DNA of 47,814 bases. Source: Clostridiaceae bacterium (GTDB lineage: Bacteria > Bacillota > Clostridia > Oscillospirales > Acutalibacteraceae). The translations under genes and the position numbers were made by a program. This document shows positions 3,776 through 47,515 of the stretch, in pieces. The DNA is taken from the NCBI GenBank assembly GCA_016282855.1, contig JAEELT010000041.1, forward strand, positions 1-47,814, written 5' to 3'. The notes beneath the pieces were generated by a model. The model did not search any database. It saw only the letters and a program-made list of their open reading frames with translations, and had not been told where the DNA came from. Numbering within the stretch: the stretch's first letter is position 1; each line of letters begins with the position of its first letter.

Positions 3776-3813
3776 AATCTCCCGCGATACTCCGGTATCA
3801 CGGGAGATTTTTT
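3776..3813. terminator. Bidirectional terminator between convergent operons
   Basis: A 15-bp stem (3776-3790 with 3795-3809, one mismatch) with loop TCCG is flanked by a T run on the right and an A run on the left. It can stop both the radical SAM operon and the oppositely oriented vitamin-transporter operon. Confidence 0.88.
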
Positions 3814-3852: not shown

Positions 3853-4551
3853 TTAAATACCGTATTTGATTTTTATTCTTCCCAGCTTCTCGGAAAACGG
3901 CTTGGCGAGCAGCGCGGTGAAAACCACGTTTGATACAGCGTAAACCGCCGTGTAAGGGGCTGCGGATGAAATGCTCGCGATGTAGTAGGAGAGCCTGAAA
4001 GTGTTGTATGCCCATATAACGGTCCACACGTCCATAATAAAAGAGTAGGCAAGGCCTGCAAAAAAGGTGTAAACACACAGGCGTACGGTGTGCCCGGCAA
4101 ACTGCTTTGAAAATACACCCGCAATAAGCCCTATCATGCCCCAGGCAAACATCTGAAACGGTGTCCATACGCCCTGCCCCGCAAAAATATTGGATATAAG
4201 GGCAGAGAAGGCCCCTATCATAAACCCCGCTTCGCCGCCCAGATAAACGGCGAAAAGCACGGTGACAGCCGTTATGGGATTCACCCCCGGCACAAAGGAG
4301 AAAACAGCCCTGCCAACGCTCGCCATGGTAACTGCCGCGGCGGCAAGCACAAGGCGCCGGGTGCCTGTCTTTCTGCGGTCAAATCCGCAGGCGAAAAGCA
4401 TAACCGAGAGTGCGGCAACGGCAAAAATGCCGTAAGAATAATTTTTGCTTCTGAAAATGAATACGCCTGAAAGCACCACAGCGGGTATGAAGACAAACAG
4501 AATAAGTACCGAGAGGGCTTTTCTGAGTTTTTCGTTTTTACCGGATATCAT
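3853..4551 (-). CDS. ECF transporter S component (probable cobalamin/corrinoid, CbrT-like)
   Basis: 232-residue membrane protein with about six hydrophobic segments. It contains the GRAVFSFVPGVNPITAV, GAFSALISNIFAGQGVWTPFQMFAWG block that I associate with the S component of B12-regulated ECF transporters. It should bind the vitamin in the membrane and hand it to the T/A/A' module encoded just upstream. The start is ATG 4551, which overlaps the ATPase stop as ATGA and has GGAGGG nearby; a longer frame to 4605 would run into the ATPase gene. Last gene of the cobalamin-riboswitch operon, so corrinoid is the favoured substrate; dimethylbenzimidazole or another precursor is the alternative. Confidence 0.8.
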   Translation of the reverse strand: MISGKNEKLRKALSVLILFVFIPAVVLSGVFIFRSKNYSYGIFAVAALSVMLFACGFDRRKTGTRRLVLAAAAVTMASVGRAVFSFVPGVNPITAVTVLFAVYLGGEAGFMIGAFSALISNIFAGQGVWTPFQMFAWGMIGLIAGVFSKQFAGHTVRLCVYTFFAGLAYSFIMDVWTVIWAYNTFRLSYYIASISSAAPYTAVYAVSNVVFTALLAKPFSEKLGRIKIKYGI

Positions 4552-6158
4552 AGCCTGCCCTCCGTTATTCCCGACACATCGTCCGGGGTAATCACGCCGG
4601 GGCATAATCCGGAGGCGATTTTCGCAGCGGATGTAGTGTAAAAAAGATTCTCGGAAAAGAACCTGCGCGGTGTGTCAACACACATCACTTCGCCGCGGAA
4701 AAACATCGCGGCGCGGTCGGCGCAGCGGGCGGCAAACTCCACATCGTGGGTCACCGTAATGACGGTAACGCCGCTGTCTCTGAGCTTTTTCAGCTCATCG
4801 CACACGGCGGTTTTCGCATAGCTGTCAAGCCCTTTTGTGGGCTCGTCAAGCAGCAGGATTTTCGGCTTTGAAGCAAGGGCAATGGCGAGAGCCGCAAGCT
4901 GCTGCTCGCCGCCGCTCAGGTCATAAGGATGGGTCTCGGCAACATAAGATAAATCAAACCCCGGCTCATCAAAGCTGATATGCGCCTTCCTGAATTCCTC
5001 ACGCAGGGTGCTTTGCAGAAACATCGGCTGAACATCCTGAGGCAGCAGCGCAACGCAGTTATCATAGAGCGACTGCCCCTTGTATTTCCTGATGTTTTTT
5101 CCGAGTATTTCCACACTGCCCGCATAAGGAGTGAGAAGACCGGCGATGGTGTAAAGCAGGGTGGATTTGCCGGAGCCGTTTGCTCCGAGCAGGCAGAAAA
5201 CCTCGTTTTCGTAAACGGTCAGAGAGGCGTTTCTCAGAGCGTCGGGGGAGTTCCTGTCGTATCTGAAATATACATTTTTCAGTTCAACAGCCTTCGCGCC
5301 GCGCTTCGGTTCATCATCTGCGCTGAGCGGGGCGCAGGGGACAAAATGCTCGGCAAAGTATTTCTTGCCCTGGCTTACCGTGAGCGGGCACTCGCCCTGA
5401 GCCCCGAGGGCTTTGTATATCCTTACGCTTCCGGGCATGGAAGCTATGATTCTGTCATTGTCAATCACGCTTTTTATTGTTTCGCGTGTTTCGCCGAAGG
5501 CGGTAACTCTGCCGCCCTCAAGCACGCAGAGCTTATTGCACAGCGGCACAACATTTTCAAGCCGATGCTCGGTGATGATAATAGTCATGCCGAGGTCCTC
5601 ATTGAGCTTTTTGAGCGTGGTCATAAAGTCCGACGCGGCAACGGGGTCAAGCTGAGAGGTGGGTTCATCGAGAATAATCACTTCGGGATTCATCGCGAGT
5701 ACGCCGGCAAGCGAAATCATCTGCTTCTGCCCGCCGGATAAATCCGCTGTGTCGGCGTCAAACAGGCTGTCTATGCCGAAATAGCTCATGATTTCCGCAA
5801 GGCGCCGCTTCATCAGATTTTGTTCACAACGCAGGTTTTCCATGCCGAAAACAATCTCGTGCCAGACCTTGTCAGTCACAATCTGATGCTCGGGCGACTG
5901 CTGTACAAAGCCGATTTTGCAAGACTCTTCGGGCGATAGCTCATCTGTGTTGACACCGCCGAAAAGCACTGAGCCGCTTTTGCCGCCGAGCGGGGTAAGC
6001 TCCGGTTTCATCAGGCGCAGCAGGGTGGTTTTGCCGCTGCCGGTAGGGCCGCAGAGCGCGACAAAATCACCGCGCTCAATTTCAAAAGAAACATCGTTTA
6101 TTATCGTATCGGAAGACGGATATCCGAATGTGAGATTTTTGACCTCAAGCAACGCCAT
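4548..6158 (-). CDS. ECF transporter ATPase, two ABC domains fused (A-A')
   Basis: 536 residues carrying both ATPases of an energy-coupling-factor module in one chain. Domain 1: Walker A GPTGSGKT (37-44), signature LSGGQ (about 140), Walker B VIILDEP (160-166). Domain 2: GANGSGKST (about 325), LSGGE (about 414), ILLLDEP (435-441). Most Firmicutes encode two separate EcfA proteins, so this is the fused, dedicated type. It powers uptake by the S and T proteins. The start at 6158 lies inside the end of the T gene (58-base overlap). It overlaps the S gene by ATGA. In the riboswitch operon, so expression should fall when B12 is plentiful. Confidence 0.9.
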   Translation of the reverse strand: MALLEVKNLTFGYPSSDTIINDVSFEIERGDFVALCGPTGSGKTTLLRLMKPELTPLGGKSGSVLFGGVNTDELSPEESCKIGFVQQSPEHQIVTDKVWHEIVFGMENLRCEQNLMKRRLAEIMSYFGIDSLFDADTADLSGGQKQMISLAGVLAMNPEVIILDEPTSQLDPVAASDFMTTLKKLNEDLGMTIIITEHRLENVVPLCNKLCVLEGGRVTAFGETRETIKSVIDNDRIIASMPGSVRIYKALGAQGECPLTVSQGKKYFAEHFVPCAPLSADDEPKRGAKAVELKNVYFRYDRNSPDALRNASLTVYENEVFCLLGANGSGKSTLLYTIAGLLTPYAGSVEILGKNIRKYKGQSLYDNCVALLPQDVQPMFLQSTLREEFRKAHISFDEPGFDLSYVAETHPYDLSGGEQQLAALAIALASKPKILLLDEPTKGLDSYAKTAVCDELKKLRDSGVTVITVTHDVEFAARCADRAAMFFRGEVMCVDTPRRFFSENLFYTTSAAKIASGLCPGVITPDDVSGITEGRL

Positions 6159-7009
6159 TTCAGCCTGTTCCCTCCTTCCGTTACGCTCGGGCAGATGCAG
6201 AGCAGCCCGTAGCCGATATAGCCGAGCATCGCGAGCGGCTGGGTTGATATCTTATCCATATAGGGATAGAAGTTATAGAAAAGCGCGTTTTTTGCCGTCG
6301 CATATACGGCGCAGGCGGCAAACACCAGCGAAAACGCAAGGAAGAGCGCGTCGCGCCTCGCAAAGGGATAAAGAGAATAGTTGCGCCGCCTTCGCCCGCT
6401 GTAGCCCCTTGCGGACATGCTGTCGGAGGTGATTATCGTTTTTTCAATCATATATGACAGCAACCCGGAGAACACTCTCATTGTACCTCTCAGGCGTGAG
6501 ACAATGGTTTCGTCTTTATAAAGCCCCAGCGCTTTCTGGTCGGTGCTCATCTGCCTTGCTTTGCGTATATACATAGGAATAAATCTCAGGGCCATTGTCA
6601 CGACAAGCGCCGCTTTACGGGAAACAAAGCCGAGAATATAAGTAATCTTATCCGATGTCATAATGGCAGAGAACGAGGCAAACCAGTAAACCGCGCCGGA
6701 GAGCATAATGCCCAGAAACAGCCCGTAAAGGGCTGCTTCCACAGTAACATTATGATTGTTTATCACCACTATTACCGTTGACCCGATATGCCCGAAAACA
6801 GGGTTGAATACCATGCAGGCGATAGTCATAAGCACGGTCCAGATGTGTATTTTTTTATCTTTTTTCACAGGCAGGGCAAGGCGGAATGCCAGCGCGCCCG
6901 CGAGCGAAATCAATGAGATTACGGGATTCATCGTGAATATGCCCGCGACTATGACACAGGCGAAGAAGATAAACACCGTAAGCGGATTGAAAATATCAAA
7001 GCAGGTCAT
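6101..7009 (-). CDS. ECF transporter T component
   Basis: 302-residue integral membrane protein. N-terminal hydrophobic segments are followed by a cytoplasmic helical region with SMSARGYSGRRRR, the Ala-Arg-Gly coupling motif of EcfT that contacts the ATPases, and two or three more membrane segments. The start codon at 7009 overlaps the preceding gene's stop as ATGA, and its 3' end overlaps the ATPase gene, so T, A-A' and S are likely made in fixed ratio. The C-terminal 40 residues past the last membrane segment are basic and are encoded in the overlap with the ATPase gene. Confidence 0.88.
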   Translation of the reverse strand: MTCFDIFNPLTVFIFFACVIVAGIFTMNPVISLISLAGALAFRLALPVKKDKKIHIWTVLMTIACMVFNPVFGHIGSTVIVVINNHNVTVEAALYGLFLGIMLSGAVYWFASFSAIMTSDKITYILGFVSRKAALVVTMALRFIPMYIRKARQMSTDQKALGLYKDETIVSRLRGTMRVFSGLLSYMIEKTIITSDSMSARGYSGRRRRNYSLYPFARRDALFLAFSLVFAACAVYATAKNALFYNFYPYMDKISTQPLAMLGYIGYGLLCICPSVTEGGNRLKWRCLRSKISHSDIRLPIR

Positions 7010-9141
7010 TTAAGATCCTCTCCGAGATTTGTAGTATAGCGCCACTCTATGTTATCACCGTCACTCAGCGTATATTCGCCGCAGCCCACATCGCCGAAAT
7101 CGCCGTTCACGCTGAACATCCAGCCCGACAAATCGCCGTAACTGAACTCGCGCAGGAAGTTTATTCCCGCAATGTAGGCGCCCGAATGGTCAGTAAGAGT
7201 TCTGGTGGAGTCTTCAATCTGAATATTGTATTGCTTTGCCGCCGATATAAGGCAGTCATAAGCGGTTGAGCCGGCAGGCAGTATGAATTCCGTGCTTTCG
7301 AGTATGATTCCGTCAGCCGGGGTTATATCCTCGCTGCCTCTGCCCGCTACGGTTTTGCAGTCTATGCTCATGGTGACGGCAATGGTGTCCTCACCCGGAG
7401 CAGTGCCCTGCGCGGAGTAATATTCGTCCGGTCTCTGTATGTCGCTTATCATGATTCCGGCCGTGATAAGCGCTGCAGCCACTGCGAGAGCAATGAAATT
7501 GACCGGCTTTCTCTTTTTCTTAATTATAAGTACGGCGCAGATAATCGCGGCGGCCGACCACACGGCAATAACCGCAATCTGCTTTAAAGGAAGGGGGCTG
7601 CTTTCGTCCTCCGGCTCATCGGAAGGAGTCGGCTCAGGCCCTTCAAAATATGATTCATCACCGGCCGGGGTCTGTGTTTCGGCCGGGGTCTGTGTTTCTG
7701 TTTCGTCTTCCTGTCCTGAAGAATACTCAACGGTAAAGGTTTCAAATGATGCGGTTTCGGTTATATCGCCCGGTGCCTGAGCGGATGTCTCCGCCAATGA
7801 AGAAACGGCTGACTGATTTGCGGCGGCAGAAGAATGAGCTTTTGTGTTTGCGGGTTCGGTTACAGGGGGAGCGGCTGTTGTCGCTGCCGGTTCGGGAGCT
7901 GCCGCTGTTTTTCCTCTGCCCCCGGTTGTGGTTTCGCGCCTTGACCTGACGGTTACGTTTTCAGGCCTTGTTACGGTAGGCGATGCGGTGGTGCCGGTGC
8001 TTTCGGGCGCAGTGGTTTTGCCGCCCGTGCGCCCGGACTTTCTTGTTGTTTCCGGTGTTACGGGTGCGGGTGATGAGGTGCCGGAGGGTTTAGAGGTTGA
8101 TGCGGGCTTAGCGGTTGACGAAGGCTTCGATGAGGTCTGCGCAGGGGAAATGTCGGTTTTTACTCCGGAGTTCAGGTCATAAAGCCTGCCTTTGCCCTTA
8201 TCAAGGCGGTAAATCGAAATAAGTGAGTAAAGCACCTGTGAAGTCGCGGATATATTGTACTGCCCGTCCTTTGTGTGGGAGTAGCCGAAGTCTGTAGCTT
8301 TGAAATCCATCATGGAATCAACAGGCGACCTTCCTCCCTTTATGAATCGCGCATCGGTCAGGGGGTTTATGCCAAGGGATGTGAGCGCCACAATGACCTG
8401 GGCTGCGCTCTCGGGATTTTTCGCGCTGTAATAGCTTGAAAAACCTCCGTCGCTGAGCTGCCTTGAAGAGAGGAGCGATATTGCTCTGTCAACAGCTTCT
8501 CTGACGGCTGAGTTTCTTGCGTAATACGGGGCAAGGCACTGCACCGCCATAGCTGTGATATCAACATCGGATGTGCCCGTATCCGTGTTGAGCGCCCAGC
8601 CTCCGTCGTCAAACTGTACGGACAGGAGGTAGTTTATTATATCATCCGCCTTATATTTTGACGAGGTGTAGCCGTTTGAAATAAGGTGAAGCCCGAAAAT
8701 ATAGCTCATAATCCCGAGCTTGCCTATTTCATTGTTGACCGTTGTCTTTATAAACCCGCTGTTTGTGCCCATTGCAGCAAGGTTCAGAGCATACCGCTCC
8801 TTTGTGGACGCTGACGCAGAGGAGTCATTTTCGGCGTAGCGGTCCAGCGCGCGCGCGTACGAAGAATAATCGTATTTGCTCCCTGCATACTGCACAAGAG
8901 AGAAAATAAACCAGTCTGAGGTGACACCGGCTTTTTCGGTGTATTTGCCGTTTATAAGATCCTGAACCGAGCCGGCGCCCGCCGAGGCACACTCATCCCT
9001 GAAAACAGCGTTTATCGTGCTTTCGATATCCGCCGCAGAAACGGCATTAGCCCGGAAGCTGAAAGCTCCGGGCAATACCGCGGGAATTATTAAGAATAAG
9101 GCTGTCAGGAGGGACAGCACCTCAGCGTATTTTCTCTTCAT
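7006..9141 (-). CDS. Membrane-tethered alpha/alpha-barrel plus DUF4430 protein, intrinsic-factor-like
   Basis: 711 residues. Signal peptide (1 to about 36); alpha/alpha-barrel of the prenyltransferase/squalene-cyclase type (about 37-325) with repeat motifs QFDDGGW (176-182) and LSDGGF, and SDVDITAMAV (191-200). The cyclase DxDD acid is absent (DVDI), so an enzyme is unlikely; transcobalamin and intrinsic factor carry a comparable VDTxAMA helix. A Ser/Thr/Pro linker (330-515) follows, then two membrane segments (520-541, 547-566) around KKKRK, so that both folded domains should face outward. A C-terminal DUF4430 domain (about 586-711, SGWMFSVNG) ends it. Barrel plus DUF4430 is the two-domain plan of animal cobalamin carriers. 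Riboswitch control and ATGA coupling to EcfT suggest a surface corrinoid-binding partner of the transporter. Function is inferred. Confidence 0.75.
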   Translation of the reverse strand: MKRKYAEVLSLLTALFLIIPAVLPGAFSFRANAVSAADIESTINAVFRDECASAGAGSVQDLINGKYTEKAGVTSDWFIFSLVQYAGSKYDYSSYARALDRYAENDSSASASTKERYALNLAAMGTNSGFIKTTVNNEIGKLGIMSYIFGLHLISNGYTSSKYKADDIINYLLSVQFDDGGWALNTDTGTSDVDITAMAVQCLAPYYARNSAVREAVDRAISLLSSRQLSDGGFSSYYSAKNPESAAQVIVALTSLGINPLTDARFIKGGRSPVDSMMDFKATDFGYSHTKDGQYNISATSQVLYSLISIYRLDKGKGRLYDLNSGVKTDISPAQTSSKPSSTAKPASTSKPSGTSSPAPVTPETTRKSGRTGGKTTAPESTGTTASPTVTRPENVTVRSRRETTTGGRGKTAAAPEPAATTAAPPVTEPANTKAHSSAAANQSAVSSLAETSAQAPGDITETASFETFTVEYSSGQEDETETQTPAETQTPAGDESYFEGPEPTPSDEPEDESSPLPLKQIAVIAVWSAAAIICAVLIIKKKRKPVNFIALAVAAALITAGIMISDIQRPDEYYSAQGTAPGEDTIAVTMSIDCKTVAGRGSEDITPADGIILESTEFILPAGSTAYDCLISAAKQYNIQIEDSTRTLTDHSGAYIAGINFLREFSYGDLSGWMFSVNGDFGDVGCGEYTLSDGDNIEWRYTTNLGEDLK

Positions 9142-9162
9142 ATTCCCAAAAGTTTAAAACAG

Positions 9163-9936
9163 TTATCTTGAAAAGATTCCTTTGATAAGGCTGATGATGT
9201 AGTTGATGTAATAGGAAATCACGTTGCCGAGATTGAACTTGGCATTTACAACGCAGGCGGGGGGAGTGATAACCATATCTTTGGGTGCGGAAGCGGAGAT
9301 GAGGCTCTCGCCGGTCTTTGTAACGGTTATTGAGGCCTTGCCCTGAGCGTCGGTCTTAACGCCTGTGCCTTTGCCGTTAAGAAGGATTTCAGCGCCCTCA
9401 ACGGGAACGGCTTTGGCAGTTGAAGTGCCCTGAGCGTCATACTCAAATGTGACTGTGCTGAGAGTGAGCTCTATTTCGGAGTAAGCGTCAACATCGGCAG
9501 TTTTCTTGTCGAAATAGACATACTGATCTTTCCACTCTTTGAGGTCGGAATAAACAAAAGCGTAAACGCTGTCATCGGCCTTTACGGTGTCGGTGAGCGA
9601 CCAGGCGGCTTTGTCATTTACATAATAGCCGTAGCTTCCGCCGTTTTCAACGCCCCAAAGCTTCTGGAGGCTGAGACCCCACTGGGTTTCGCCGGCTTTA
9701 TAGCCTTTTTCGGCTCCGCCGTCATAATACTGCTCATGAGTGCAGTAGAGCACGTCGTTTACGGTGATTGCTTTATCACTGTCGATATCGGTAACCTTAA
9801 CCGTTTTGTTGATGAGCACAAGGCTGCCCGCATTGGCGATTGTTACGGTTACGTTGGTGCTGTCGGCTGCGAATGCCACACAGACAAAGCTGAGCATCAT
9901 AATTGCAGCGAGCAGGATTGAAAGTGTTTTTTTCAT
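9163..9936 (-). CDS. Secreted DUF4430 protein, candidate corrinoid-binding
   Basis: 257 residues with a clear signal peptide (MKKTLSILLAAIMMLSFVCVAFA). The start at 9936 is fixed by AAGGAGA just upstream. Residues about 25-140 form a DUF4430-like domain (ITVNDVLYCTHEQY, then GGSYGYYVNDKAAW and DDSVYAFVYSD), the fold of the transcobalamin C-terminal domain. A second beta domain (about 150-235, VEGAEILLNGKGTGVKTDAQG) resembles CarboxypepD-regulatory/Ig-like modules. The chain ends with a hydrophobic aromatic tail (YYINYIISLIKGIFSR) that may hold it at the membrane. It lies between the HNH-repeat gene and the barrel-DUF4430 gene of the riboswitch operon, consistent with vitamin capture. Ligand unproven. 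Confidence 0.75.
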   Translation of the reverse strand: MKKTLSILLAAIMMLSFVCVAFAADSTNVTVTIANAGSLVLINKTVKVTDIDSDKAITVNDVLYCTHEQYYDGGAEKGYKAGETQWGLSLQKLWGVENGGSYGYYVNDKAAWSLTDTVKADDSVYAFVYSDLKEWKDQYVYFDKKTADVDAYSEIELTLSTVTFEYDAQGTSTAKAVPVEGAEILLNGKGTGVKTDAQGKASITVTKTGESLISASAPKDMVITPPACVVNAKFNLGNVISYYINYIISLIKGIFSR

Positions 9937-9967
9937 AAAATATATCTCCTTTTCTTCGGGTCTGCGG

Positions 9968-10255
9968 TTATTCGGCAGCTCCGTTATTTGATTTTTTTGC
10001 TGTTTTGCGCTGAGTTGCTTTGCGTTTCTGCGCTTTTCGTTTTTCCTGCCTTTTGGCAAGTCTTTCGGGGTCCGCCGGCTTTATACCCGCCGCCTCAAGC
10101 GCGCGCGGCCAGGGGCCCAGGAAAGCTTTGATTGCGGTAACTTCCCTTCCTGTAAAGTCCCTCTGGGCAGGGTACCTTGTTTCGCCGTCGCTTTTGAGCT
10201 CGGCATATTTTCTGTTCAGCAGAGCTATACAGTCGGTTTTGGTATAATCAGTCAT
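9968..10255 (-). CDS. Small basic protein with a homing-endonuclease-associated (HNH_repeat-like) motif
   Basis: 95 residues. The start at 10255 is preceded by GAGGTG; a longer frame would begin in the leader hairpin. The segment YPAQRDFTGREVTAIKAFLG-PWPRALEAAGIKP resembles the short helical repeat found beside HNH/homing endonucleases and in some DNA-binding proteins. The C-terminal third is Lys/Arg/Gln-rich (KRQEKRKAQKRKATQRK) and probably binds nucleic acid. No nuclease motif is present. It is the first gene after the cobalamin riboswitch, so its level should follow B12. What it does with a vitamin transporter is unclear; a regulator is one possibility. Confidence 0.65.
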   Translation of the reverse strand: MTDYTKTDCIALLNRKYAELKSDGETRYPAQRDFTGREVTAIKAFLGPWPRALEAAGIKPADPERLAKRQEKRKAQKRKATQRKTAKKSNNGAAE

Positions 10256-10273
10256 ATTCACCTCAAAATAAAG

Positions 10274-10301
10274 GCGCCTGCCCGGATTGCCGGACAAGCG
10301 C
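10274..10301 (-). promoter_or_regulatory. Strong leader hairpin between riboswitch and first gene (expression platform candidate)
   Basis: On the minus strand, 12 bp (two G-U pairs) with loop CAAT, followed by CTTTATTTT and then by the GAGGTG ribosome site. It could work as a weak terminator or by masking translation initiation. A second leader stem (GAAAAGTGC with GCACTTTTC, plus 10321-10361) lies upstream. Confidence 0.55.
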
Positions 10302-10391
10302 AACTGTTAAATGCCTTCACGAAAAGTGCACACGCAAAAACATAAAACGGCTGCACTTTTCATCCCCAAAAATGCTGCGGCAATATGCCGC

Positions 10392-10515
10392 ACCAAACAA
10401 ATGCACTGCGGGTATTCCGACTTAACGGCTCAAGGCCGATTACGGTAATGGAAGTTGCGACGGATTTTCACCGAACTTGCCCCTTATTTCTTAAAGAAAG
10501 CAGTACACTTCTGAA
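10392..10515 (-). ncRNA. Cobalamin riboswitch
   Basis: The minus strand shows the hallmarks of the B12 element: GGTGAAAATCCGTCGC (about 10473-10458), CCATTACCGTAATC for the usual CCACTGTAA segment, and the 3' B12-box-like AAGTCGGAATACCCGCA (about 10423-10407). The element starts about 10-15 bases after the predicted transcription start and precedes the HNH-repeat/DUF4430/ECF operon. By family knowledge it lowers expression when adenosyl- or other cobalamins bind. Exact ends are approximate. Confidence 0.93.
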
Positions 10516-10526
10516 TTGTCATCCTA

Positions 10527-10555
10527 TATATACCACAAAACCCGGTCTGTGTCAA
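10527..10555 (-). promoter_or_regulatory. Promoter of the cobalamin operon
   Basis: On the minus strand, TTGACA (10555-10550), a 17-bp spacer and TATATA (10532-10527). The consensus -35 and exact spacing suggest a strong constitutive promoter, leaving control to the riboswitch. Confidence 0.85.
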
Positions 10556-10608: not shown

Positions 10609-10642
10609 ACAATTGACTTTATATTATTAATCTTTCATATAA

Positions 10643-12736
10643 TTACGCTTTCTCACTTGTGAGTTCGTATTTTCTGATAAACGCCACATGTGCGGAGCCG
10701 TCGCTCTTTGCGTCAACATCGGCAAAGTCGCCGCCTTTTGAGTTTGTGTTTCCGCAGGCAAAGACGGTGCCGTCGCCGACATAACATATGCTTCCCGCGG
10801 TGTCTGTGCCTTCTCCGCCGAATGACCTCATCTTGACAGGCTTGCCGCCTGAGGTTTCAATTATGCCAAAGTAGCAGTCGTAGTCTCCCTTGCTCGGGAA
10901 TACAAAATCACGGGTGGTGGAGTTTGTCTGCGCGATAAAAGCGTAGCCCTCGGGTATGGCTGTAACTCCCTTTATAAAATCGTTGCCCGAGCCCTTTATA
11001 TTCTGGAACCACCTGAATCTTCCGCTGCCGTCAACACGAAGTATAACGCCTTCCTTACCGCCGGCATAGTATTCGTGAGGCCCGTTGAATGAGCCTTTCA
11101 GCCCGCCTGAAAGGATACTGTAGTAACCGCCGACCACGCAGCCGCCGTCATTGGCGGGGGTGATTGAAACAAGCTCTACGGAGCCGTTCTCATAAAAGTC
11201 TTTCATCCATTGCTGTTTTCCTGAGCTGTCAAGCTTTTCGACAACGCTGAAAACTCTGCCGTTTTTCGCTCCATCCATTGTCTCAAAATCGCCTGCTTTT
11301 GCGTTGGTCTGAATTACAGCGTAAATGTCGTCGCCCGAAACACAGATATCATTTACACGGCAATAGGATTTGCGCGGGCAGGAAACAGCCTGAATCCACT
11401 GAATATTATCGGATGAGTCAAACTTTGCGACAAAAGCCTTGCAGTATTCGCCTGGCACGTTTTTGAGGTCGGCGTCGGGAGAATCTGTCTCACCGGCGAC
11501 AACATATCCGCCGTCGGATGTTGCGGCAACCGCGTACAGCAAATCGCCGCCGCTGCCGCCGAATATTCTGAACATTTCTCTCTTGCCTTTATCTGAATAT
11601 CTCGCAATGATGCCCTCTGCGGTGTTTATCGCTTTATATTCGGACTGGGGAGCTATATCGGAAGCGGTGGTGGTGCCTACGGCAACTATGCTTCCGTTCT
11701 TGAGCACCGCGACATCGGCAAAATCGGAAAGAGAATCAGCGCTGTATGTGTCATTCCATTTTTCTTTGCCGTTTTTATTGAATTTTACAATCAGGGGGTT
11801 GCTGTCGCCTTCGGGCATCTGAGTGCCCACGCAAACCACGCCGCCGTCATCTGTTGCGGCGCAGGAGTTGAATGTGGTAAATGAACCCTTGTCTTTGAAT
11901 GTGTTTGTGGCATCGGGCTGAACATCGCTTACCTTGTAACTTTCGGCTGTTACGGCCTCCGTGAAAGACGGTTTCACTGTTTCGCCGCCGACGGGGCTTT
12001 TTATGGAGGTGGGGGGAGTAACGGGATTGCTCCTTGTGGTCGTTGTTCTTGCAGTGGTTGTTCCGGAAGCCGAAGAAGTTGTGCTTCTGCTGCCGGAAGA
12101 GGTTGTGCCTGCGGGGGGGTTATCCGGCTCGGGATTGGTGGTATTGTTGTTTCTGCCGGATCTGCCTGAGGAAGCGCGTGTTGTAGTGGTTGTTGCCGCC
12201 GCAGACGAAGTTTCTATAATCCTGACGTCTCCGTTTTTATCTGTAACCGCCGAAGCGCCGCGGTCCTTTGCCGCCCTTGATACTCTCTCATACTGCTCTC
12301 TTGAAAGGCGGGTGGAGCTTTTCACTCCGGCATCGGACATAATATCGCTTGCTTTTTCGTCCGAAATGTCGCTTGATTCAATGCTGCTGTCTTTTTTGAT
12401 AACTGTTTTGCCGTCGGCGTTTGTTTCAACAGCGTAGCCTTCCTTTTCGGCAAGGGCTACAACTTTTTTAAGCTGGTCCTCGGAAAGCGAGCTGAGGTCG
12501 CCGTCGAAGCCTTCGGCTTCTTCTCCGAGAGCTTCGGAAACTATGGCCGCAAGCTCAACGCCTTCAATCTCAACCGGCTGATATGATTCGTTTTCACCTG
12601 AGTTCCAGCTTTCGTCCGGTGCGAGAGTGGTGGACTCAGTGCTGCTTTCCTTATTGAATGAGCAGGCCGTGAAAACCGACACTATAAGCAAAACGCTCAT
12701 AGCGACTGAAACTATTACGGTTAATCTGTTTTTCAT
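10643..12736 (-). CDS. Secreted lipoprotein with Ser/Thr-rich stalk and beta-propeller-like repeats
   Basis: 697 residues. The start at 12736 is set by GGAGGTAAGGCA-ATG. The signal peptide ends in a lipobox-like FTAC, so it is probably lipid-anchored. Residues about 30-190 are acidic with two related segments of about 40 residues (KKVVALAEKEGYAVETNADGK and YERVSRAAKDRGASAVTDKNGD). A Thr/Ser/Pro-rich stalk (about 195-265) follows. The rest is a repeating beta pattern (ATSDGGYVVAGETDS, ANDGGCVVGGYYS, AVLKNGSIVAVGTT, LDSSGKQQWMKDF) as in predicted beta-propeller surface proteins. Probably binding or scaffold; no catalytic residues seen. Own promoter and terminator; single gene. Confidence 0.75.
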   Translation of the reverse strand: MKNRLTVIVSVAMSVLLIVSVFTACSFNKESSTESTTLAPDESWNSGENESYQPVEIEGVELAAIVSEALGEEAEGFDGDLSSLSEDQLKKVVALAEKEGYAVETNADGKTVIKKDSSIESSDISDEKASDIMSDAGVKSSTRLSREQYERVSRAAKDRGASAVTDKNGDVRIIETSSAAATTTTTRASSGRSGRNNNTTNPEPDNPPAGTTSSGSRSTTSSASGTTTARTTTTRSNPVTPPTSIKSPVGGETVKPSFTEAVTAESYKVSDVQPDATNTFKDKGSFTTFNSCAATDDGGVVCVGTQMPEGDSNPLIVKFNKNGKEKWNDTYSADSLSDFADVAVLKNGSIVAVGTTTASDIAPQSEYKAINTAEGIIARYSDKGKREMFRIFGGSGGDLLYAVAATSDGGYVVAGETDSPDADLKNVPGEYCKAFVAKFDSSDNIQWIQAVSCPRKSYCRVNDICVSGDDIYAVIQTNAKAGDFETMDGAKNGRVFSVVEKLDSSGKQQWMKDFYENGSVELVSITPANDGGCVVGGYYSILSGGLKGSFNGPHEYYAGGKEGVILRVDGSGRFRWFQNIKGSGNDFIKGVTAIPEGYAFIAQTNSTTRDFVFPSKGDYDCYFGIIETSGGKPVKMRSFGGEGTDTAGSICYVGDGTVFACGNTNSKGGDFADVDAKSDGSAHVAFIRKYELTSEKA

Positions 12737-12782
12737 TGCCTTACCTCCGTTTACAGATTTTTCTGTGTTAAGATACATTTTA

Positions 12783-12811
12783 AAAATAGCACAAAAATAC
12801 CTCAAAATCAA
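12783..12811 (-). promoter_or_regulatory. Probable promoter of the beta-propeller lipoprotein gene
   Basis: On the minus strand, TTGATT (12811-12806), a 17-bp spacer and TATTTT (12788-12783), with TGC just upstream of the -10 (extended -10). It faces away from nth; a TATAAT at 12872-12877 on the plus strand is a candidate -10 for nth. Confidence 0.5.
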
Positions 12812-47304: not shown

Positions 47305-47475
47305 GTGAAATATCTCGCTTTGCTCGATGTGAAATAATTCTGACGAATTGTGAAATTTTGCGGCAAGCCGCAAAGTGAAATGAAATAAATCCACCCACGC
47401 CCGCAGGCATTTCATACGCCGAAGGCGTATTTCATGCACGAAGTGCATTTCACAAATCCTGAAAGGATTTATTTC
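47305..47475. repeat. Ordered array of small palindromes with GTGAAAT / ATTTCA spacers
   Basis: The left half has four GTGAAAT spacers (47305, 47329, 47350, 47375) separating palindromes: 47312-47328 (imperfect), AATTC-TGAC-GAATT (47336-47349) and TTTGCGGC-AA-GCCGCAAA (47357-47374). The right half has ATTTCA spacers (47409, 47429, 47447) separating ATACGCC-GAA-GGCGTAT (47414-47430), ATGCAC-GAA-GTGCAT (47434-47448) and AAATCCT-GAA-AGGATTT (47454-47470). GAAATAAATCC (47382-47392) and GGATTTATTTC (47465-47475) form an 11-bp inverted repeat enclosing the right half. Confidence 0.85.
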
Positions 47476-47477
47476 GT

Positions 47478-47515
47478 TGAAAACGACAGTATTCTGTCGA
47501 ATACTGTCGTTTTCA
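47478..47515. repeat. 17-bp perfect hairpin
   Basis: TGAAAACGACAGTATTC (47478-47494) and its exact complement (47499-47515) around TGTC. It borders the palindrome array. No T run follows, so it is not a typical terminator. Confidence 0.9.

Follow-up and report, generated by a model that had tools for sequence, protein, structure and literature searches.

A conserved cobalamin-riboswitch operon that joins exported DUF4430 proteins to a CbrT-like ECF transporter and very probably acquires vitamin B12

The operon and its transporter

The window considered here is the entire 47,814-base contig JAEELT010000041.1 (C60), part of a draft genome of 2.3 Mb that is 86% complete. The operon that it contains is real and well conserved, and very probably serves to acquire vitamin B12. 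All of its genes are on the minus strand, and the order is a promoter, a cobalamin riboswitch (RF00174), a hairpin, an HNH_repeat gene, genes for two exported proteins of 257 and 711 amino acids (aa), and the EcfT, fused A-A' and S genes of an energy-coupling factor (ECF) transporter. As read from the sequence, this is probably a corrinoid-repressed operon whose products would capture corrinoid at the surface, clamp it, hand it over to a CbrT-type S component and import it at the expense of ATP. Scavenging of B12 by exported SLBB proteins, often occurring as paralogous pairs and encoded in operons with CbiO and CbiQ, was predicted by Burroughs et al. in 2007 (PMC1796856). Support for this function now exceeds that behind the 2007 prediction, and the mechanism is clear, if putative. 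New here are the CbrT-type partner, numbers for the link to the riboswitch, a split architecture that is tethered to the membrane, and the HNH_repeat gene.

The initial annotation of the window had proposed a full ECF transporter, and this was borne out. EcfT (6101..7009) belongs to the CbiQ family (PF02361, E = 2e-10), and the gene that follows (4548..6158) encodes fused ECF ATPases A-A', with two ABC_tran stretches in one chain (E = 1.9e-56) and matches to ECF_ATPase models. The S component (3853..4551) has CbrT as its nearest solved relative, both as a single sequence (PDB: 6fnp_A, E = 7e-10) and by profile (A5, E = 8.3e-18). It is CbrT-like, with corrinoid as its putative cargo. Both cobalamin and cobinamide are substrates of ECF-CbrT and high-affinity ligands of CbrT (PMC5997447). 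No CbiM or CbiN family was listed for the T and S proteins, and neither a BtuF-like binding protein nor a FecCD-type permease was among the listed Pfam matches of the operon proteins, a listing that covered 25 of 31 families for the ATPase.

The genes are co-directional and the last four overlap, as the initial annotation had described: by ATGA at 7009-7006 (711-aa protein and EcfT), by 58 bases at 6158-6101 (EcfT and A-A') and by ATGA again at 4551-4548 (A-A' and S). At the related loci L080, L094, L108 and L165, and at further places, EcfA-A' and S form one continuous frame of 881–1201 aa, an apparent fusion. The exported proteins had also been held to be tied to the transporter through both regulation and translational coupling. 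The regulatory tie is upheld by the riboswitch link described below (52/83), while coupling between DUF4430 and EcfT was rejected as conserved evidence. With EcfT starts set mechanically as the first start codon, 39 of 72 loci had no overlap even at this earliest start, and the overlap was exactly 4 bases in 12/72.

Comparative surveys

The neighborhood of RF00174 had been named in the initial annotation as the place to look for DUF4430 genes, and a survey of 120 genomes (119 genera) from the same taxonomic family found them there. RF00174 was identified at 83 places in 72 genomes and DUF4430 at 130 places in 89 genomes. At 52 of the 83 riboswitches, DUF4430 was encoded on the same strand no more than 8 kb downstream, compared to 1/83 for an opposite-strand-or-upstream control. 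The riboswitch counts are lower bounds because the strict filters miss even the window's aptamer; neither the window's genome nor its genus mate has a match listed in these scans.

Within the same set of genomes, which are incomplete drafts, CbiD was found in 10 and the B12-binding family PF02310, an imperfect sign of B12 use, in 99. DUF4430 was present in 0/10 genomes with CbiD, in 83/89 with the B12-binding family and no CbiD, and in 6/21 with neither. The Fisher values for these contrasts, 3.8e-7 and 1.7e-9, overstate independence since the genera share ancestry. CbiD had no match in the window's genome, an 86% complete draft. CbrT-like S components and DUF4430 occurred together in 82 genomes and were both lacking in 24, and DUF4430 was within 6 kb of 66/96 CbrT-like S places, a co-occurrence that is favored because the S profiles came from DUF4430-linked loci. 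A check of 196 genomes of the class gave DUF4430 in 11/50 genomes with CbiD, in 74/131 with the B12-binding family and no CbiD and in 1/15 with neither (Fisher 2.7e-4 and 2.0e-4). The trend is weaker than in the family and persists when the family itself is removed (7.5e-4 and 2.3e-4).

Comparative evidence for the putative scavenging of corrinoids is strong. The Gram-positive scavenging system with an extracellular step that was proposed in the initial annotation is the reading with the most support, which comes from the CbrT-like S component, the riboswitch link, the proximity of DUF4430 to CbrT-like S genes and the absence of DUF4430 from the 10 CbiD genomes.

Related loci

The 52 riboswitch-linked stretches differ in their organization. 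The most compact arrangement, found in 21, has S directly after DUF4430 and no T nearby, with the junction of the two genes in all 21 lying between an overlap of 59 bases and a gap of 10 bases. T and S follow DUF4430 in 12/52, T-A-S precede it in 1/52, one short stretch has T without S, and L068 contains only a piece of S, located before the riboswitch. The S profile from the two-gene loci matched CbrT at 1.8e-27, closer than the window-type S, and the two S profiles aligned with each other over 162 columns (99%). This two-gene form points to DUF4430 and S as the core, with the toroid of the larger exported protein as an addition.

A set of 80 related loci was also compared, the best 80 of 178 confirmed by tblastn and therefore biased to close kin. 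By record title, most come from Clostridia of the rumen and gut, and four from Paenibacillus. T, A and S were labeled in 72, 69 and 73 of them, respectively, the toroid in 77 and the smaller exported protein in 58, where A labels may also stem from unrelated ABC genes within the stretch. DUF4430, T, A and S were found together in 67/80 loci, and B1-type, toroid, DUF4430, T, A and S labels all in 55/80. By coordinates alone, a riboswitch precedes the operon in 47/80 loci; this leaves out one of 48 script-assigned riboswitches, that of L164, which would fall inside the operon, and it is a lower bound because five stretches start less than 300 bases from the first gene and weak aptamers were filtered out. 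A riboswitch-led version occurs in Paenibacillus cellulosilyticus CECT 5696 (L188), whereas Pseudoruminococcus massiliensis (L124) has the toroid-DUF4430-T array with no riboswitch match. Two loci have a pair of riboswitches each, L162 at 7855-8006 and 10611-10751 and L165 at 7873-8015 and 10713-10845. In both, one riboswitch is placed before the exported proteins and the second before an HNH-EcfT-A block. Under this arrangement, separate riboswitches of one kind precede the transporter and the exported proteins.

Exported proteins

The larger exported protein (711 aa, 7006..9141) is predicted to be membrane-tethered and consists of a signal peptide (by eye), an alpha/alpha toroid, a Ser/Thr/Pro-rich linker, a membrane hairpin and a DUF4430 domain. 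The toroid (residues 31-325, 8167..9051) is related to squalene cyclase-type chains (profile A10, best E = 1.1e-14), and Pfam SQHop_cyclase_C was matched in 32 of 36 toroid members at E 0.01. The vertebrate cobalamin-binding alpha family (PF01122) was not among the Pfam matches of the 711-aa protein or of the toroid members at that threshold. Since the toroid profile finds cyclases, identification of this region as a transcobalamin alpha domain was rejected.

Two hydrophobic segments (7447..7578) flank the sequence KKKRKP, a predicted cytoplasmic turn, and the same pattern is seen in relatives. By the positive-inside rule applied to this loop, both the toroid and the DUF4430 domain are predicted to face outward. 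Two hydrophobic segments with a basic loop were present in 72/72 toroid-DUF4430 proteins, comprising that of the window and 71 relatives of 500-760 aa; 60 were scored by script, with a net positive loop in all, and 12 by inspection, with a K/R-bearing loop. The linker, measured crudely from residue 330 to the first hydrophobic segment, has a median length of 108 residues (range 14-215). In the window, DUF4430 starts about 60 residues past the membrane hairpin. The toroid is thus followed by a beta domain in a single chain, as in the vertebrate carriers, yet the hairpin splits the two.

The DUF4430 domain of the larger protein (residues 624-703, 7033..7272) is plainly identified by PF14478 (62.9 bits, cut-off 23.8, E = 4e-17). 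A profile of 26 small DUF4430 proteins of the taxonomic family (A8), 17 of which have a lipobox-like cysteine by eye, was searched against the PDB and matched 3u7z (RUMGNA_00854, E = 5e-28) and human transcobalamin-1 (E = 9.7e-6). Intrinsic factor and transcobalamin-2 appeared at E 0.14 to 2.7, amid unrelated chains of similar E-value. According to a 2026 paper, 3u7z shares a CATH superfamily with the beta domains of transcobalamin and intrinsic factor, in which a beta-hairpin helps to coordinate cobalamin (PMC13385337), and a 2014 paper describes transcobalamins with a C-terminal DUF4430 domain (PMC4350170). By homology, the DUF4430 domain is related to the transcobalamin beta domain and may bind B12.

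The smaller exported protein (257 aa, 9163..9936) contains a signal peptide (by eye), a DUF4430-like domain, an Ig-like region of CarboxypepD_reg type and a hydrophobic C-terminal tail. The initial annotation had counted two DUF4430 proteins, which is straightforward for the 711-aa protein; the 257-aa protein is distantly DUF4430-like, by profile comparison only. PF14478 was not among its listed matches even at E up to 10, nor among the families listed for 34 aligned members of its group. Alignment A3, made for this protein, matched A8 by hhalign (94%, E = 1.4e-7) and gave no hhalign match to A7, the window's own DUF4430 subgroup. Against the PDB, the single sequence returned weak matches alone, with unrelated names, and the group profile had no match at E up to 1. 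CarboxypepD_reg was found weakly in 14/34 members. A [PST]xTG motif is present within the last 70 residues of 16/34 members, often followed by a hydrophobic stretch and a basic tail, a pattern known from wall-anchored proteins; Pfam Gram_pos_anchor was matched in just 1/34. The relative of the 257-aa protein in L112 (553-2781) carries its domain twice, along with numerous KYYMGxDGxAYTKRLISVNG-type repeats that resemble wall-binding repeats.

Promoter, riboswitch and neighboring features

The near-consensus promoter proposed in the initial annotation is present as a -35 hexamer TTGACA (10550..10555) and a -10 hexamer TATATA (10527..10532) separated by a 17-base spacer, with 10/12 matches to the consensus by eye. 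TTGACA also occurs in the same-genus locus L115. The pair at 10555-10527 was not among the sites listed by an automated promoter scan because that scan requires T at the last -10 position.

Infernal placed the leader, which had been annotated as a cobalamin riboswitch, in RF00174 (10390..10520, 39.4 bits, gathering 31.5, E = 2.5e-8). A whole-window Rfam scan at the gathering threshold missed this aptamer and a narrower search found it; when the draft genome was searched at E up to 1, it was the sole RF00174 match. The aptamer is of a short form in which 61 consensus positions are replaced by 8 bases. Short-form cobalamin aptamers have been linked to a distinct class that prefers different ligands.

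A hairpin right after the aptamer (10376..10392) may be a kissing-loop hairpin; compared to L115 it has one two-sided compensatory change and one pair lost to a gap. A terminator-like hairpin with a U-rich tail before the first gene (10274..10301) is a probable expression platform. L115 retains 11 of its 12 pairs, two of them as G-U, and shows two-sided compensation at two pairs. The aptamer core is nearly identical between the two loci. A further terminator hairpin with a T7 tail (3776..3809) lies between the S gene and a convergent gene. Since 16 terminator-like sites were found in the window against 11.2 expected in shuffles, a lone site is weak evidence. The compensatory changes between the two sequences compared support control at the RNA level via termination, with the ligand effect expected from the riboswitch family.

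The HNH_repeat protein (95 aa, 9968..10255, PF18780, 27.0 bits, cut-off 26) has a basic tail. Its open reading frame is situated between the riboswitch and the exported-protein genes and was missing from the genes listed in the initial annotation. Relatives were labeled in 21/80 related loci, sometimes as the first gene and sometimes directly before EcfT. A match was located in L115 at 7869-8144 and others in L135-L189. Among 19 aligned members the stretch LGPWPRALE is invariant and a basic tail is usual. It is a guess that the protein is a nucleic-acid-binding regulator.

Upstream of the promoter, a large protein is encoded at 10643-12811 on the minus strand. Its best match was the NCBIfam SBBP beta-propeller lipoprotein model (8.4e-13), with 47.8 bits falling well short of the cut-off of 400. 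A Gut-1 RNA (RF01706) was found near the contig end at 47404-47479 on the minus strand (74.3 bits, gathering 50).

Proposed mechanism and alternatives

When corrinoid is scarce in the cell, the riboswitch would let RNA polymerase pass the 10301-10274 terminator, and when corrinoid is plentiful the terminator would form. The two exported, cell-bound proteins would then catch corrinoid outside. In the 711-aa protein, the toroid and DUF4430 domain could clamp it between them in the manner of transcobalamin, both tied by the membrane hairpin, with the linker letting the toroid swing. The 257-aa protein may be a second binder or an adaptor. At the membrane, the cargo would be handed to the CbrT-type S component, and EcfT and the fused A-A' ATPases would drive it in a presumed inward direction with ATP. 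Cargo release from the human carriers requires proteolysis (PMC5997447); unlike these, a tethered split clamp could reopen. It is tentatively proposed, at somewhat less than an even chance, that the operon provides a dedicated capture stage for an ECF transporter, namely a membrane-tethered split transcobalamin that reopens to feed CbrT without proteolysis and that has a minimal form in relatives, where one small anchored DUF4430 protein accompanies CbrT. If true, the split tethered transcobalamin would be a bacterial counterpart of the animal B12 carriers and perhaps akin to their source.

Several observations weigh against capture and hand-over. Sixteen of the 52 linked stretches have neither S nor T by profile; ten of these are longer than 10 kb and some are cut by contig ends. 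Seven genomes of the family have a CbrT-like S component without DUF4430, and seven have DUF4430 without S. In the class, DUF4430 occurs in 11/50 genomes with CbiD, so the exclusion is not absolute and complete exclusion fails as a general rule. The window-type DUF4430 profile (A7) found no transcobalamin in the PDB at E up to 10, and the toroid profile matched cyclases and alpha-2-macroglobulin there and no transcobalamin. ECF-CbrT restored B12-dependent growth in E. coli devoid of BtuF and BtuC, and the available part of the account names no outside partner (PMC5997447). Since CbrT itself binds cobalamin tightly (PMC5997447) and works in E. coli, import could in principle do without an outside binder.

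An unlikely alternative is that the CbrT-like S component imports alone and that the exported proteins have another role under the same switch, for example anchoring the complex to the wall or binding polysaccharide, and pass on no cargo. The toroid is closer to cyclases than to transcobalamin, and the L112 relative of the 257-aa protein has the many repeats that resemble wall-binding ones. ECF-CbrT is functional in E. coli as described, and domains of multi-domain SLBB proteins elsewhere are often for polysaccharide interactions (PMC1796856). These points are countered by the beta-domain profile A8, which reaches transcobalamin-1, by the tracking of DUF4430 with a need for B12 without its synthesis, and by the 21/52 linked stretches that pair just DUF4430 with an adjoining S, the smallest unit to be expected if DUF4430 is a cargo partner. 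It is very improbable that the complex exports corrinoid to load B12 proteins outside the cytosol. Flavin export by an ECF complex, involving FmnA/EetB of Listeria, has been reported (PMC9973259) and the exported proteins are predicted B12 binders; however, a cobalamin riboswitch, from which repression is expected, a CbrT-type S component and the lack of DUF4430 in those genomes of the family that have CbiD all argue for import. Transport of cobalt or another metal for corrinoid synthesis is scarcely credible. Pfam names the EcfT family CbiQ, for cobalt transport, and the PDB title of 3u7z calls it a putative metal binding protein. Against this, the S component resembles CbrT, no CbiM or CbiN was listed for T or S, and CbiD had no match in the 86% complete draft.

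Significance and comparison with known systems

B12 is contested in the gut and rumen, and its capture by Gram-positive bacteria is poorly known. If the exported proteins do hand B12 to CbrT, ECF transporters would gain a class of partner that is missing from the available parts of the ECF accounts compared here. An origin of the animal B12 carriers in low-GC Gram-positive bacteria was suggested in 2007 (PMC1796856), and hand-over, if true, would make that origin testable biochemically. Both the operons and the two-gene minimal form are small, clonable test systems.

The initial annotation had stated that related loci appear in genome surveys and that it knew of no experimental description of this arrangement. 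A literature search, with subscription journals mostly outside its reach, likewise found no experimental study of such an operon and no corrinoid-binding test of such bacterial proteins; the scavenging idea itself is not new (PMC1796856). The main text of a 2013 survey of cobalamin riboswitch regulons contains neither DUF4430 nor words beginning with Cbr (PMC3766115). Like the operon, the systems of Burroughs et al. encode an alpha/alpha toroid in one exported chain with an SLBB (DUF4430) domain. A second exported SLBB protein is often present there, the operons include CbiO and CbiQ, and B12 synthesis is usually lacking (PMC1796856). The word riboswitch occurs 0 times in the main text of that paper, and the available part of it names no S component, no membrane hairpin in the toroid-SLBB protein and no HNH_repeat gene (PMC1796856).

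The ECF-CbrT transporter of Lactobacillus delbrueckii is alike in its CbrT-type S component and in an ECF module built from T and two ATPases. The gene neighbors of CbrT in that species are nrdJ, cbrS and pduO, and the module that it uses is a shared one, whereas the CbrT-like S component of the window comes with a dedicated T and fused A-A' and with two exported partners. No outside partner is mentioned in the available part of the L. delbrueckii account (PMC5997447).

BtuG and BtuH of gut Bacteroides also capture B12 at the surface for uptake; unlike the proteins described here, they serve Gram-negative outer-membrane transport. They are not known to be related to the exported proteins of the operon.

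The vertebrate carriers transcobalamin, intrinsic factor and haptocorrin share the order of a toroid followed by a DUF4430 beta domain, and homology to that beta domain is seen with the small DUF4430 profile. In contrast to these carriers, the toroid of the 711-aa protein is not recognizably of the vertebrate alpha family, a long linker and a membrane hairpin intervene, and the predicted protein is bound to the membrane.

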